DNA of 64,000 nt from positions 62,001 to 126,000 of the forward strand of contig MU394095.1 of NCBI GenBank assembly GCA_022578605.1. The letters run 5' to 3'. The notes below the pieces were generated by a model. That model was not told where the DNA came from and searched no databases. It saw only the letters and a program-made list of their open reading frames with translations. The position numbers and the translations under genes were made by a program. The stretch is from Camillea tinctor (Eukaryota > Ascomycota > Sordariomycetes > Xylariales > Xylariaceae). Shown here piece after piece: positions 1-6,431 of this stretch (position 1 is its first letter; every line of letters begins with the position of its first letter).

Positions 1-70
1 CCTTTACACACCGGTCGAGTGACTAGTTACATGTAGAGAGGGCTAACTTGCCTCCCCCTTTTCCTTCTAG

Positions 71-809
71 ATAATAATGGGCAGGTACGTCTATGAACTA
101 GTATAGGTATAGGTTACCTTCTACACGGGATATTTTCTGATATAGGACCAGACTGTTCTCCATTTTGTCGCTTCCAAGAATAATCTCGATGTTGCCCGCA
201 AGCTGTTTGACAGCAAGCCGCCAGCATCTACTCGAGTGCGCGACAAACGCGGCCAGTATCCACTCCACCGAGCCGCTGCCATCGGCTCAGTACCTATGCT
301 AAAACTGCTACTCGAGAATCGTAGTCCTCTGAACGCAACTGATAACGTGGGCTACACTGCCTTGCAGTGAGTGGTTTCTGCTCGTTTGTCCTTCCCTTCT
401 TTCTTAAGCCTTGTTTCGGGAGCGAAATTCATCCATCATGGCTAGGCTTGTGAGTTTCGACTCCCGAGACAGTCTGGAGAGTAAACAAGTTACTTTATAT
501 AGCAATTATTGACACTATTTGTTACAGTCATGCTATCGCCGAAGGTAATGGTAAGTTTTCTCATAAGTTAGCTGTAGAGTGCGACGGCCATAGTAACGCG
601 AATATAGGGGCTGCTGCCATAGCGCTACTGAAGGCCGGGGCCGAGACCGACAAGCGAGATTTTGATGGTCACATGGCTCTCGATCTTGCCCCTGACAAAG
701 AGGTTCGTACACCTGTGTCTAACCGCTAAAAAAAACTAACCTAACATGGAATTGCTAGGTTCGCAAGTACATTGAGAGGGAGGCGGAAAATGAAGGCATC
801 GATCTTTGA
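71..809 (+). CDS. NAS6: 26S proteasome assembly chaperone Nas6 (gankyrin/PSMD10), 3' part
   Basis: Ankyrin-repeat chaperone that binds the Rpt3 ATPase during assembly of the proteasome base. Visible exons are 71-84, 146-366, 528-550, 608-702 and 759-809; the start lies before the window. The joined protein shows ankyrin units such as GQYPLHRAAAIGSVPMLKLL and an ending IEREAENEGIDL. The exons of 14 and 23 nt are very short, but all junctions keep the frame (390 nt from 146 to the stop). The 367-527 intron is 161 nt, far longer than the 57-nt neighbours, and resembles an intron in the ceramidase gene (see the mobile_element entry). The gene converges with the TMF gene, with 127 nt between stop codons. 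Assignment to Nas6 rather than another ankyrin protein rests on length, repeat spacing and the C-terminus. Confidence 0.82.
367..527 (+). mobile_element. Introner-like intron, copy 1 (inside NAS6)
   Basis: 161-nt intron with GTGAGT donor and TTACAG acceptor. Its 3' part, from GAGTTTCGACTCCCGAG at 452-468 to GCAATTATTGACA at about 502-514, matches the intron at 5611-5788 in an unrelated gene. Two arms (about 413-430 and 452-470) can pair as a hairpin. The ATTATTGACA block sits where a branch point is expected. Ordinary introns in the window share no such sequence with each other. Confidence 0.7.
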
Positions 810-936
810 ATGACCTGCTTCTACTACAAACAAAATGCGCTAGTAATGAAGTTGTCCCGCCATTTTTGCATTGTAACCAAGAAAATAATAGATTACATCC
901 AGATAGGACAAGTTGGAGCCGAGAAAATGGCCTCCT

Positions 937-3554
937 TTACTTGATCGTCCGCTCTACTAGGTCTCTGTACATTGCTTTGACGTCCTGAACATCGGCGCGC
1001 AACTCCTCGACCAGCTCACTCTTCTCCCCTAGCATCTCTAGAGTGGTCTGATATCTCTCGTTGATGTCGGACACTTCCTTCTCAAGTTCTTCGACCTTCT
1101 TTATTGCTGCTTTACCCGCCTCCACTTCTTTGATGAGGGTGACAATCTCCCCGCGTGCTTCATCTCGCTGACTCGATATCCGGGAAAGCTCTTCTTTTGC
1201 TGCCACCTTCTCACTTTCTAACCGCCGGATAGCGGCGCTCATCCTTTCGACAAGCTGTACTGACGGGCCAGCAGTCATAGTTGAGACAGAAACCATGTCC
1301 TGCAGAACGTTCTGGGGAGAAGCTGACCTCTCAAGGCCCTCAAAAATCTCATCCCTATCTCTATCTGCAGCATTGGTCGATGGAGAAGCCAGTAGATCCA
1401 GGCCGCTAGGTAGAGATGGTGGTGTGCCTATCTGGGCTGAAGATATGGGGAAAAGGGGGGATCGTATCGGGGGCTGGGCCGATGGCCGTCTTGCGGATGA
1501 AGGTCTCTCGCTTGGGCTTGGTTCGCCATTACTAGAGGGCGCCGAGGTCTTGCAGAACCTTGTTGAGTAGGTTTGCAACCCAAGGAAGTCGCTGCTGAAC
1601 GTCCTCTGCGGTGCAGCTAGCAAGGGAGATTCGGGACGACTCCCATTTCGGAAGGCGGTGGTAGGAAGATCCTCCAACCAGTTCCGTCTATCGGTATCCG
1701 GCCTATCGGGCTTTTCTTCTTTCCACGCCGCTTGTTGCCTTTCCAGATCAGCCTTCGTTTCTGCTAACGCGGCCTCGGCCTCTTCTGCTCGTTTGCGAAG
1801 CGATTCGAATTGGGATTGGTATGAGGATAGATCACGTTGAACGTTTGGTAGTTGGGTTTTCGCTTCCTCTAGTTCCTCCTCTTGACGCTTGGCACGTGAA
1901 GCCTAAAGTAAACGAATCGTCAGCGATGATCGTATTCCCTCTCAACTACTAGAGCACATACCGTTTCCCGAGCCTTTCTCCTCATCTCAGATTCTCGTCG
2001 TAATGCTTCATCCCTTTCTTTTTCCAGGCTTGCAGTTCTAGCCACTAGGGATGCTTCTATGCCTTGCCAGTTCTCACTTGCAATGGAATATTGTGTCTGG
2101 AGCGTCTCGATCTGCCGGAGAAGCTTAGCTTGCGCATCCCCCACGGCACCCGATGAAGCTTCCTCAGCCCTGGCGCGCATTGCCTCCAGCTTGCTTTCCA
2201 ATATCTGTAACTCGCCTTTCAGTTCCAATTCTACAGCACGAGAATGTTCTGAAGCCCTTTCGGCCTTCTCCCGAAGCTCCGCTGTTTGCACCTTTGCTCG
2301 GTCGGCTATGAGGCCCTTTTCCACTTCTAGCGACGCTATTGTATCTTCCAATTCTTTCACACGTTGCTTCCCAGCCTCCCTAAGCTCCCCGCGAAGCTTA
2401 GCTTCCGTAGACTTAGCTCGATCTATTTCCTCCTGGAGTTTTGTCTTGAGTTCAGATACAGTATTTTCCTTTGACGCTATATCGGCTTTCAACCTATCCA
2501 CATCCCTTCGTAATTGTGTTGTTATCTTAAGTGCTTCCTCGTTCGCTTTCTCAAGCCTGTTGGATTCATGGACTTGTTTGCGTAAATTGTTCAATTCATT
2601 TTCAGCCTTCTGACGCCATATCTTCTGATCGTTAAGCTCCTTCTCGCTAACTGCAAGTTGACCCCTCAATTTCTTTATGATTGTTCGATGTTTCTGCTCT
2701 GTAGCTGCTAGCTTTTGACCCTCCTCCATTAGCTGAGCAACCAGCTGATCTTTTTCAGCCACCTTCTTTTCCAAGCTCCCTGCCGGCGCATTTATGGCAT
2801 TATTCCTCGCCGCTTCTGCTGCCTCTTTGGCCAAGTACTGTAATTTCGCTTGAAGAGCATCCACCTGCTCAACATGGCTATGTAACTCTTCTTGATGCTG
2901 TATTTGGGACTCTTGTATATTCTTCTCTAGGTCTGCTATGCGCTTTTCGTACAAGTCACCTGGAACTGGCATATTTGTAGGCTCCACTGGTATTTTTGAA
3001 GCGGACTCGGATATCGAGAGAGGCTCTTGGTTAATGCCCTGGCATTCATTTTGTAGCGATGTACGAGGACTTTCCACATTGGACTTGAGACCATTGGAGG
3101 CCGGAGGCATGTCTGTAGGCTGCGATATATCCCTAGCATCCGCTCCTGTAGCAGAAGGCATTGCATCCGGGGCTCGATCGATCGACAAGCTTGATCGTGG
3201 ATCTGTCGGTTGCGACGTGGCTGTTGGGTCTGTAGAATGACCATCCGAGCTCGGACGAGGACTTTCGGCGCTTGGCCGGCCGGAGGATGTATCAGATCGT
3301 TGAGTAGAATTTTTCGAGGCGACAGCGCGAGCCAGTCTTTCCTGCAGTCTATCGTTCGCAGACCTAGAGGGGGTACTCGAACGTGGGGGTGGTGTCGCAA
3401 CGGGTGGCGTTCCAGCTGCAGTGGAAGATGCTGGCTCTAAAGGTCGTTTCGCGGGCTCTTCTTCGGCAAGGATGTTGTCAAGCCGTGCCTCAACACCGGC
3501 GACAGCCTGGGATAAGAACGAGCCCCATTTCGATGTCTTCTGAGGCGCAGACAT
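937..3554 (-). CDS. SGM1: TMF-family golgin (TATA element modulatory factor / Sgm1)
   Basis: Long coiled-coil Golgi tether, 852 aa, two exons: 3554-1962 and 1902-937, with a 59-nt intron (donor GTATGT, acceptor TTTAG) that keeps phase 0. The N-terminus WGSFLSQAVAGVEARLDNIL is the conserved TMF start. A Ser/Pro/Thr-rich linker follows (about residues 35-190), then coiled coil rich in Glu, Lys and Ala. The last ~110 residues, starting QLVERMSAAIRRLESEK, are the conserved TMF C-terminal domain (named TATA-binding in Pfam), which in TMF golgins binds Rab6-type GTPases. Its known role is tethering vesicles in Golgi retrograde traffic; transcription-factor activity is not expected. The coding run continues between the two obvious open frames (1678-1902), which confirms the splice. 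Confidence 0.92.
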
Positions 3555-4817
3555 GTCTTAAGGCTCAAGGGCCGGGAAGGTCTAAGTGATCTAGTGGGTG
3601 GCTACTGGTGTTGGATGTTGTGGACTTCTTCTTAAGAGTCGGCGCATCGTACAGTGAATTCGTAATTAGACGGCTTAATGCTGACGTGTCACGATAGCAA
3701 AAGATAGCGAGGTGCCAACAGGAAACAGGGCCAGTTTAAATCTCGTATAGGGCGTTCAAAGGTGAGTCGAATTGGTGTTCCAACTCCGCCTCTGACGAAG
3801 CCTCAAGTTACATCAATAGGCCAAGGCGCGCAAGCTAGCAAAAGAAAGGAACCTCTCGGGAATTCGAACGCATCGCGGGTCAAGCACACACAGCTTAGAG
3901 GCTACTGTTGGATGATGGTGTTATAAAAATTGAATAGTCCGTTTCGTCTACGTTGATAATAGTGGGAGAGCAGTAAGAGTAGTAATAATAATGGGAGGAG
4001 GAGGAGGCAGCAAGTGCTATGTGAGTGTGTGTGCGCACCATTAACGTAAGTGGTGAATAAAAAGTAGGTAGGTTAGCTGGTTAGGTAGGTACTACGTCCA
4101 TACGAGAAACGTCCAAATATGCTTGTAGATAGCGATAGCGGTACGTAAAGTGCATACTCAGGTACTGGACACCTAAGATACCTCTTGCTAGAGATAAGTG
4201 ACCAACCTACATTAGGTACCTAGTACATGGTATTATGGATTGCATGCATAACCTACGGAGTATTGACATAGTGCGCAGAAAATTAACTACGCAGCTACGT
4301 AACTAGTAGGTAGGCACGGAAATAAGCCCATACGTATATCTACCTACTTAGTAATATGTATCTACCTAGCTACTACCAGGATTTTTGCCCCCTTAAGTTC
4401 ATACTGCATATTCCATACTTGGGTGTCTCATTCTGCAAGGGTAAATATCAAAGTGCAGGGTATTAGGATATAGGTGCAATCATTGGTACGGAGTATACAT
4501 GTAAACAGAAACCCACCGGACGGGGTCTCACTGAATCGGCATCTTCGGCTCCCATGGCTTCCTATTCAAGCCCACCAGTGATCGAGGGTGAGATTACCTA
4601 CCTAGATCACGTACCACCCGATAGTCATATACCTACTAGGGCCATCAGTCCTTACACTTCCTACTATATAAGGCTATAAACATATTGTAAAACTACTAAC
4701 TTTCTTTACTCTATAAGTACATATTTTTCTACCTACCTACTTAAGTACTTATCTATCCGTGTATCGGTCCATCTATTGGATCCCTTAATTTGTCGTCCCC
4801 CACGTTCTGGCAGCAGC
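3555..4817. other. Intergenic, divergent promoter space
   Basis: Lies between the TMF start (minus) and the ceramidase start (plus). It is AT-rich with many short TAGGTAC / CTACCTA motifs, notably 4060-4400. I see no convincing gene or RNA. Confidence 0.6.
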
Positions 4818-6431
4818 ATGTCTGCTCTGAGCTTCCCCTACCATGAACCTCGCGAGGGATTCTGGGGCGAGAAAACGTCTACCCTAAACTTTTGCGAAGA
4901 GGTTACTACCATTGTTCTTGCTTTGTTATATGTTGTAAATTTATCGAGACTAACGTTGGCTTTAGGACTATGTTATTAGTTACTATTGTGCCGAAGTCTG
5001 CAATGTGCGCCATCACATCTCTCGCTCGATCCACGCCGGGCTCCTCATGTAGCTGACTCTTTTAGACACTGACGAACCTTCTTTTCCTCTGCCTAGGTGT
5101 TAAGGGTATTCGAGCATGTATCAAATACTCCCACCCTCGCATATTCCTGGTGGCATTTGTCGGCTACATAGTGGTTGGCTGTGGCTCTACCTTTTTTCAT
5201 GCCTCGCTCAAATGTAATAGGCACACATTAGCATATACCTACCCTCCTCATCTCTCTAGCTCCCCTTCCCCCTCCCCCCCTTTTCCCTTCCCGTTTAATA
5301 AGATGCTAATATCTCTTAGATTACATGCAACTAATTGACGAGCTTGCTATGATCTACACGACATGTTTTATGTGCCATGCAACATTTGCTTATGGCAGGT
5401 CTCGGGGCTTTTCATTCTGCCTGGGTGCCGGACTTGTTGGCCTTGCATGGTTTATTACTGTGTGTCATACCTTATTTTGGCTGCACACCTCGATCGGACC
5501 TCACGACTAACTATCCCCTAGGCAAGGTATTACCAGACTAAGGATCCTGAATTTCATCAGACTGCGTACGCCATCCTGACGGCTACCGTTGTTTTCTCCA
5601 ATATGTGGATGTGAGTAATTTTTGGAGTCGTTTATTCCCCCTTTTGGCCTGTCTCGGGGCGGCCCGGGAGTCAAAGTTCGCTATCATAGTTAAGCGTATG
5701 AGTTTGTAGGAGTTTCGACTCCCGAGCCAATGGTCTCAAGAGTAGATTAATTACCCAATATGGCAATTATTGACAACCATCATTATAGTATGGAGAAGAT
5801 GGTTAGGCCACAGCTCAAAGAAAGACAAGAAAACCGACCGCGGAATTCGACAGTCCCGAGTAGCGATGCGATTTTATCACAGATGTGGATGATGGTCGCC
5901 GTGGGTAGGTGAAAATAGTGAAGGGAGGGTACTCTAAGTATACCATTACAGCCCAGCTAATTGTTGGTGTTGCCAGGCTTGAGTATATTTCTCGGCGGTT
6001 ACGTGATATGGATTCTCGACAACGAGTACTGTGGAAAAATTCGTAAATGGCGACACCAAATCCAGCTCCCATGGGCTATTGTTCTTGGTAGGTGATGTAG
6101 TCTACGTTACGATTTGTCTCGTCTCCGGGGCGTAGTCTGGGTACAAGGTTTTAACTAGAAGCTTACTGATCATTCACTCCTGTTCATAGAGGGTCATGCG
6201 TGGTGGCATTTAATGACTGGGTTTGGTGGTGAGTCAACATTTGTGTACTACTGAATATGTAGTGCAAGGCTAACTGAAGGAACTTACTCAGCATACTATT
6301 ATATCATGTGGCGTATTTGGATACATCGCTGCCTGGATGGCGATGAAGACAAATTCCGACTTCGTTGGCCGTCGATTTTCGTAACACCAGCTGTGGTGGT
6401 CATAGTTGAGGAGGACAAGAAGCATCTTTGA
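4818..6431 (+). CDS. YPC1: Alkaline ceramidase (ACER / Ypc1-Ydc1 family)
   Basis: Seven-membrane-segment ER hydrolase that cleaves (phyto/dihydro)ceramide to long-chain base and fatty acid. Nine exons: 4818-4901, 4966-5004, 5066-5213, 5320-5459, 5522-5610, 5789-5904, 5977-6087, 6190-6228, 6292-6431. They total 906 nt and encode 301 aa. Family blocks in order: GFWGEKTSTLNFCEED, TLTNLLFLCLGVKGIRACI, VGCGSTFFHASLKYYMQLID, KDPEFHQTAYAILTATVVFS, and WRHQIQLPWAIVLEGHAWWH then LMTGFGAYYYIMWRIWI. The FHASL His, the ELAMIYTT Asp/Glu region and the HAWWH His residues are the metal and catalytic positions of the family. The chosen ATG is the only one in frame before the conserved block. Intron 5 (178 nt) is the introner-like copy 2. 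Ypc1 and Ydc1 types cannot be separated here. Confidence 0.93.
5611..5788 (+). mobile_element. Introner-like intron, copy 2 (inside ceramidase)
   Basis: 178-nt intron, donor GTGAGT, acceptor ATTATAG. It shares GAGTTTCGACTCCCGAG (5710-5726) and GCAATTATTGACA (about 5763-5775) with the NAS6 intron at 367-527, in the same order and at similar distance from the acceptor. Arms 5661-5672 and 5717-5728 form a 12-bp stem (one G-U). It is about 2.5 times longer than most other introns of this gene. Confidence 0.7.

Follow-up and report, generated by a model that had tools for sequence, protein, structure and literature searches.

The two long introns at positions 367-527 and 5611-5788 of the window, by which we mean the whole 64-kb stretch of contig C45 that was analysed (from an assembly of 44.69 Mb in 154 contigs), belong to a large family of introner-like elements in the genome of Camillea tinctor (Xylariales, Xylariaceae). 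The proposal of such a family came from a sequence-only reading of this DNA and is borne out in the genome, where copies lie in unrelated genes, are longer than ordinary introns and share a strongly structured consensus. We consider it probable that the two window introns are copies of an introner that multiplied by way of its excised intron RNA.

The sequence-only reading started from two words common to the NAS6 and ceramidase introns, and we find both words where they were placed, with GAGTTTCGACTCCCGAG at 452 and 5710 and GCAATTATTGACA at 502 and 5763, each present once per intron and absent from the rest of the 64 kb on both strands. These words are the forms of the window copies; the family consensus instead reads GAGTTTTGACTCCCGAG and GCAATTACTGACT. 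A local alignment of the two introns covers 66 columns at 79% identity (BLASTN against the window, E = 2e-10), and the next-best window match of either intron has an E value of at least 0.11. When the window was searched with a profile of 63 copies, both window introns included, only 367-527 and 5611-5788 were found end to end (E values 2e-25 and 4e-53 for the two introns). At E < 1 the profile otherwise hit only these introns in reverse complement (7e-6 and 2e-4), a consequence of their palindromic sequence; the match after those had E = 7.8. The positions of the features in the two copies are given in the table.

Table. Features of the two introner copies in the window
Feature	Positions	Strand	Remarks
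Introner copy 1, gene NAS6 / proteasome regulatory ankyrin protein	367..527	+	161 nt, phase 2, inside His codon
Introner copy 2, alkaline ceramidase gene	5611..5788	+	178 nt, phase 2
Exon bases preceding copy 1: CA	365..366	+	TC at 528-529 after intron, giving CA|TC
Exon bases preceding copy 2: AT	5609..5610	+	TA at 5789-5790 after intron, giving AT|TA
Copy 1 5' near-terminal arm, starts at donor position 5	371..385	+	consensus fold
Copy 1 3' near-terminal arm, ends 2 nt before intron end	511..525	+	consensus fold
Copy 2 5' near-terminal arm (GTAATTTTTGGAGTC)	5615..5629	+	consensus fold
Copy 2 3' near-terminal arm, degraded	5772..5786	+	consensus fold
Copy 1 central hairpin, 5' arm	414..430	+	consensus fold
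Copy 1 central hairpin, 3' arm = first shared word	452..468	+	word match, fold
Copy 2 central hairpin, 5' arm	5663..5679	+	consensus fold
Copy 2 central hairpin, 3' arm = first shared word	5710..5726	+	word match, fold
Copy 1 second shared word with likely branch site (consensus TTACTGAC)	502..514	+	branch site predicted from fungal consensus
Copy 2 second shared word with likely branch site	5763..5775	+	branch site predicted from fungal consensus

The coordinates proposed for both introns prove to be exact GT..AG splice limits, and the flanking exons are unrelated, as had been said, with ankyrin repeats (NAS6) around one copy and a ceramidase around the other. An NCBI protein of Camillea tinctor (P0001) is spliced exactly at 367-527. 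Our spliced NAS6 model is 97% identical to the NCBI Camillea tinctor protein, with differences only at two other exon borders, and both read TALHHAIAEGN across copy 1. A Pfam Ceramidase match crosses the copy 2 junction after excision with a score below the curated cut-off. Active splicing of all copies is suggested by the reading frames, by homology and by this one NCBI gene model.

Some further features of this region were observed. The next NAS6 intron, at 551-607, is 57 nt long, a multiple of three, and holds no in-frame stops; a similar in-frame stretch is retained there in two Biscogniauxia proteins (P0003 and P0019) but is spliced out in others and in the Camillea model, and the intron may be exitron-like or a wrongly annotated intron. 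NAS6 and the alkaline ceramidase gene adjoin in 1-6430, each carrying an introner, and a Hypoxylon texense protein (P0005) matches NAS6 yet is named alkaline ceramidase, which suggests the same gene order or a fused gene model in that species.

As a genome query the first window intron gave 7 matches, and the second, used as a genome DNA query, gave 40 scored matches among 69 candidates. A profile search of the loci fetched with these searches then yielded 63 full-length copies of 146-211 nt, which are the copies nearest to the queries and not a random sample of the family; their boundaries were placed at the nearest AG, after which 63 of 63 are GT..AG. Genome-wide searches with patterns for the two ends, each allowing up to 3 mismatches, found 114 3' ends (60 and 54 by strand) and 93 5' ends (47 and 46 by strand), and the reversed-pattern controls found 0 and 1, respectively. 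When the 93 5' ends were paired with the 100 listed of the 114 3' ends, 50 pairs were obtained at a spacing of 56-215 bp, 48 of them at 149-215 bp. Pattern ends and extracted copies merge into about 150 distinct places on 66 contigs, and capture-recapture puts the family at about 185 places, which is probably low because old copies escape both end patterns. Thus, the outcome that had been named as fatal to the proposal, that no further copies exist in the genome, did not occur, and the copy number rules out chance similarity.

The two introns had been called unusually long, and this holds for the family, with a median length of 177 nt compared to 65.5 nt in 38 ordinary introns, which were taken from the same sequences by a regular expression and a frame test, a heuristic choice without RNA verification. 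It had also been said that introner-like elements are near-identical introns that multiply. Multiplication is what we observe, but near-identity is not, since pairwise identity among the copies is 53-88% with a median of 74%, and no two of the 63 extracted copies are near-identical. The median identity to the consensus is 86%, and because 0.86 squared is about 0.74, as expected for star-like descent, we conclude that the family is one old, decayed burst. In the aligned copies the similarity stops at both splice sites, and the flanks are unrelated apart from a preference for YA|TG. Repeat-induced point mutation (RIP) was rejected as the process of decay: there are 1216 transitions to 553 transversions, and the CpA excess is not marked, with a C>T rate of 0.167 at CpA and 0.119-0.127 at CpC and CpT (for CpG the two strands were pooled).

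The preference is read from the exon bases next to the 63 copies, where position -2 is C or T in 45, position -1 is A in 36, position +1 is T in 57 and position +2 is G in 48. TG directly follows the intron in 47 of the 63 copies and in 5 of the 38 ordinary introns (Fisher 1e-9), and the whole YATG site is present in 26 copies and 2 ordinary introns (6e-5). AG stands upstream of the intron in only 5 of 63 copies. Insertion thus prefers YA|TG, and this is not a proto-splice site. The two window sites, CA|TC for copy 1 and AT|TA for copy 2, match it only in part. Divided into thirds by age, the 63 copies have YATG in 9, 11 and 6 of 21, and a stronger site preference in younger copies was not seen. 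A palindromic target extending beyond CATG was rejected, as 4 of 63 copies have one at k = 4 where 1.2 are expected, which is too few. Helitrons insert at AT and have a 5' TC end and a 3' CTRR end; A|T sites are found at 33 of 63 copies, but the element ends here are GT..AG, and a Helitron was rejected as well.

No target-site duplication was detected: flanks of one copy do not match each other in excess over shuffled pairing for k = 2-6 and 8 with 156 offset pairs each (best z 1.6). If insertion was seamless, logic also excludes a duplication in the common case, since the last base is A in the exon but G in the intron, and the first base is T in the following exon but G in the intron. The ideal site, CA|GTG..CAG|TG, prompted us to consider a CAGTG duplication; this was rejected, as its removal would cost one base and shift the frame, and as shuffled pairing gives no locus-specific match.

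Once the intron is excised, an open frame in the sense direction runs for at least 20 codons to either side of the junction in 60 of the 63 copies. This test alone is weak because antisense frames pass the same 20-codon test in 45 of 63, but the sense frame is the longer one in 58 of 63 (medians 251 vs 94 codons, p 3e-11); sense vs antisense location was read for these 63 of the ~150 places. Pfam was run on 60 peptides that cover 62 of the 63 copies (one peptide holds three introners), and in 25 of these 62 a domain reaches across the junction with at least 10 residues to either side. Any Pfam family at all is found in 33 of the 60 peptides, and two of the junction-spanning matches score no higher than the curated cut-off. 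The spanned domains include GH13, SDR, P450, amidase, sulfatase, SRAP and asparaginase. Because open frames also occur antisense, only the 25 copies with a domain across the junction can be placed firmly within a gene, and where it can be tested the copies sit in the coding sense. In the GH13 glucosidase the alignment through the conserved Met of GFRMDVI is gapless across the excised introner. The idea that the element itself brings the TG was rejected, since two added bases break the frame and this split Met is conserved in PDB relatives.

The copies are also unevenly placed with respect to codons. Phases 0, 1 and 2 occur in the ratio 13:37:10 among 60 copies compared to 15:13:10 in the controls (p 0.03), and 22 of the 60 copies split an in-frame Met codon (ATG). 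At YATG sites phase 1 is found in 19 of 24, where the exons concerned would lead one to expect 52% (p = 0.005), and at NTG sites phase 2 is rare, with 5 of 44 compared to 42% expected from the NTG positions of the same exons (p = 8e-6).

The second outcome that had been named as fatal, the same intron positions across distant species, was approached through paralogues in the same genome, and in the two gene families compared these lack the intron. Searched against its own genome, the GH13 host is matched as two segments, residues 1-123 and 121-240, which adjoin where the introner lies, and both of the other GH13 matches in the genome read through the introner position. The SDR host is likewise split at its introner; of 58 other SDR matches, 38 continue across the position unbroken and 20 do not extend over it. 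These paralogues are distant, and therefore they show the ancestral state only indirectly.

Copies tend to lie together on one strand: of pairs closer than 4 kb among the 93 5' ends, 10 are on the same strand and 0 on opposite strands, where 0.38 are expected of each. An alpha/beta-hydrolase gene at C74:75530-76586 carries three introners, all within its domain. Two further places, C2:1700615-1702355 and C65:41591-42294, each hold three introners within 2 kb (the last one at C65 is a weak match), and there are three 5' ends within 4 kb at C109:17425-21277. Local spread within genes was rejected, as copies in the same gene are no more alike than other copies.

The consensus can be aligned with its reverse complement over nearly the whole length with a score of 66, compared to a mean of 24.6 in 200 shuffles and a maximum of 48 in another 200, and the consensus sequence folds at about -60 kcal/mol. 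In the outermost helix GTAAT, from donor base 5, pairs with ATTAC, which ends 2 nt before the intron does, and a near-terminal 5-bp stem with 4-5 pairs is found in 56 of 63 copies compared to 7 of 38 control introns. Single copies are modestly structured, with a median folding z of -2.1 (34 of 63 below -2) and a self-complement z above 3 in 25 of 63. From the gapped alignment A1, which has 62 rows with one 211-nt copy left out, RNAalifold gave only 6 consensus pairs. Pairing is no better than with shuffled partners on four of five measures of compensatory change (paired cells 83.5% vs 83.3% in shuffles; both-side changes 53 vs 46.6, reached by 84 of 500 shuffles), and on the fifth, a covariation score, the observed value was reached by 38 of 500 shuffles. 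We conclude that the whole intron forms a single long, imperfect palindrome, with inverted repeats close to both ends, and that it decays without clear compensatory change. Since the ancestral palindrome decays once inserted, it would have served movement and not splicing. A conserved functional RNA was rejected, as no Rfam match was found in the window at gathering thresholds and the pairing decays without clear compensation.

We also looked for a partner element that could have moved the copies. Among the paired pattern ends within 12 kb, with 100 of the 114 3' ends listed, there is no longer version having both ends. Four of the 93 5' ends have their nearest listed 3' end 687-2375 bp off, and all four are ordinary copies that had already been extracted. 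In this comparison 43 of the 93 5' ends have no listed 3' partner within 260 bp and 14 of the 114 3' ends are unlisted, so that diverged ends and the 14 unlisted 3' ends could hide a longer partner. A search of the genome for the PF13359 transposase (PIF/Harbinger-Spy type, PHIS) gave 0 matches, where the control matched in 1 of 14 genomes; searches with PF14214 and PF12012 also gave 0 matches, but no control genome matched either, so that these two zeros are uninformative. PF03184 (DDE_1) relics occur in only four places (C103:9315-9943, C20:328591-329213, C24:94781-95308 and C63:189388-189756), none of them near an introner end among the ends listed. Two of the four relics have many TAA stops, which looks like repeat-induced mutation.

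In the mechanism that we favour, a spliceosomal intron would have spread through the Camillea tinctor genome in a single past burst, after which its copies would have decayed, and the moving unit would be exactly the intron, from GTGAGT to the terminal AG. The ancestral form would have been a long imperfect palindrome whose near-terminal arms fold both ends together. New copies would enter seamlessly, without target duplication and preferably between A and T of YA|TG, in the coding sense of expressed genes, and would be spliced out at once. The mobile form was most likely the folded, excised intron RNA, which may have entered a transcribed gene at a nick or an opened site, through reverse splicing or end ligation, with a presumed enzyme making the DNA copy. 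An RNA-linked route is favoured by the exact intron limits, the coding sense, the clustering and the undetected duplication, while a DNA route is favoured by the inverted repeats and the target motif. Reverse splicing alone would not predict YA|TG, and this counts against the RNA-linked reading. A further reading, which we regard as rather unlikely, is an introner with true target-site specificity, in which a folded palindromic RNA or a dedicated factor would select YA|TG without duplication and preferentially in frame at Met codons. If a frame-dependent choice of this kind is true, it would point to insertion coupled to the spliced or translated message, or to survival that depends on frame, and away from random breaks or proto-splice sites.

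The rival that we take most seriously, though we doubt it, is DNA transposition, in which a blunt-cutting transposase would move a non-autonomous inverted-repeat element without target-site duplication and, in the manner of Spy elements, place it between A and T, and only sense insertions in genes would survive or be recognised. The inverted repeats along the whole intron length speak for it, as does the strong quasi-palindromic target motif CATG/TATG (26 of 63), which has the insertion point at its center. Spy elements are described as lacking target duplications and inserting within AAATTT (PMC4482050, in its available portion), and most introner families outside ascomycetes are read as DNA transposons in the available portion of PMC9860276. 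Against transposition, the element limits are exactly the splice sites with a sense bias of 58 of 63, the ends listed yield no copy in which a long interior lies between the two ends, and the genome has no PF13359 match. Less probable still is capture during double-strand-break repair, in which end joining would fill breaks in genes with intron RNA, folded or double-stranded, or with a DNA copy of it, as proposed for the sister stwintrons of Hypoxylon. The long symmetry uniting the ends and the seamless, duplication-free insertion fit the model in PMC8469720, as far as its available text describes it, but that model predicts random sites with no bordering pattern, whereas TG follows 47 of 63 copies and 5 of 38 ordinary introns here, and it could be rescued only if the breaks themselves favour YA|TG.

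That the introns are instead old, with chance or functional similarity such as a conserved intronic RNA, and were never mobile is very improbable: the divergence of the copies (median pairwise identity 74%) agrees with such an origin, but there are about 150 places in unrelated genes with end-to-end homology, paralogues exist that do not have the intron, no Rfam match was found anywhere in the window, and the pairing is about that of shuffles on four of five measures. We give hardly any credence to a [D1,2] stwintron family as known from Hypoxylaceae and Xylariaceae. Those stwintrons share the fungal order, a length of about 180 nt and near-terminal inverted repeats that unite the terminal Gs (available text of PMC8469720 and PMC12403724), but they start with GGT, and G precedes GTGAGT in only 12 of the 63 copies; in a by-eye comparison with the stwintron sequences in the available text, their near-terminal elements (GUAUAAAAAC) and their palindrome TTTCTAGAAA are absent from the family consensus.

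Even so, among the elements described in the accounts available to us, the closest are these symmetrical sister introns of Hypoxylaceae and Xylariaceae; their sequences are different, they begin with GGT and their sites are reportedly random. The NTIRE-10 stwintrons of Xylariaceae (Fekete 2021, 2025) likewise belong to Xylariales and have internal symmetry with inverted repeats from donor base 5, and Xylariales stwintrons are likewise described as lacking target duplication, with a symmetry that decays in older copies (PMC8469720 and PMC12403724, as far as available). The Camillea introns, unlike the stwintrons so described, are canonical, do not start with GGT, are symmetrical over their whole length of about 177 nt and have other sequences. 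They occupy about 150 places compared to the 23-48 given for Hypoxylon CO27-5, and they have a clear site preference, whereas the available text of PMC8469720 and PMC12403724 reports random sites.

The introner-like elements of Dothideomycetes (Fulvia, Dothistroma and Zymoseptoria; van der Burgt, Collemare) are likewise many similar, structured and seamless introns in unrelated genes, and some of these families are old and inactive, according to the portion of PMC4457414 available. They belong to another fungal order and have the site AG/GY as quoted in PMC8469720, compared to YA|TG here, and it is by such description that we set them apart. The introners surveyed by Gozashti et al. 2022 are likewise similar up to both splice sites and enriched in genes; in the available part of that survey Acanthoeca is cited as having TIRs without TSDs and the ascomycete families have neither, whereas this ascomycete family has inverted repeats (PMC9860276). 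Spy DNA transposons of the PHIS superfamily likewise have inverted repeats, reportedly no target duplication, and insertion between A and T (PMC4482050, available portion), but their target is AAA|TTT compared to YA|TG here, the Camillea ends are splice sites, and PF13359 has no match. In the literature searched we found no paper on the introns of Camillea tinctor or on introners in Biscogniauxia.

The origin of new spliceosomal introns is a long-standing question, and the available part of PMC9860276 treats ascomycete introners as exceptions to the DNA-transposon account. New here is that whole-length symmetry, an undetected target duplication and a measurable motif that is not a splice site come together in one ascomycete family. 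The motif and the symmetry make the mechanism testable, as they predict where new copies should land and which structural change should stop them. The clean entry of a once-mobile intron at a preferred short motif thus offers a handle on how new introns arise.
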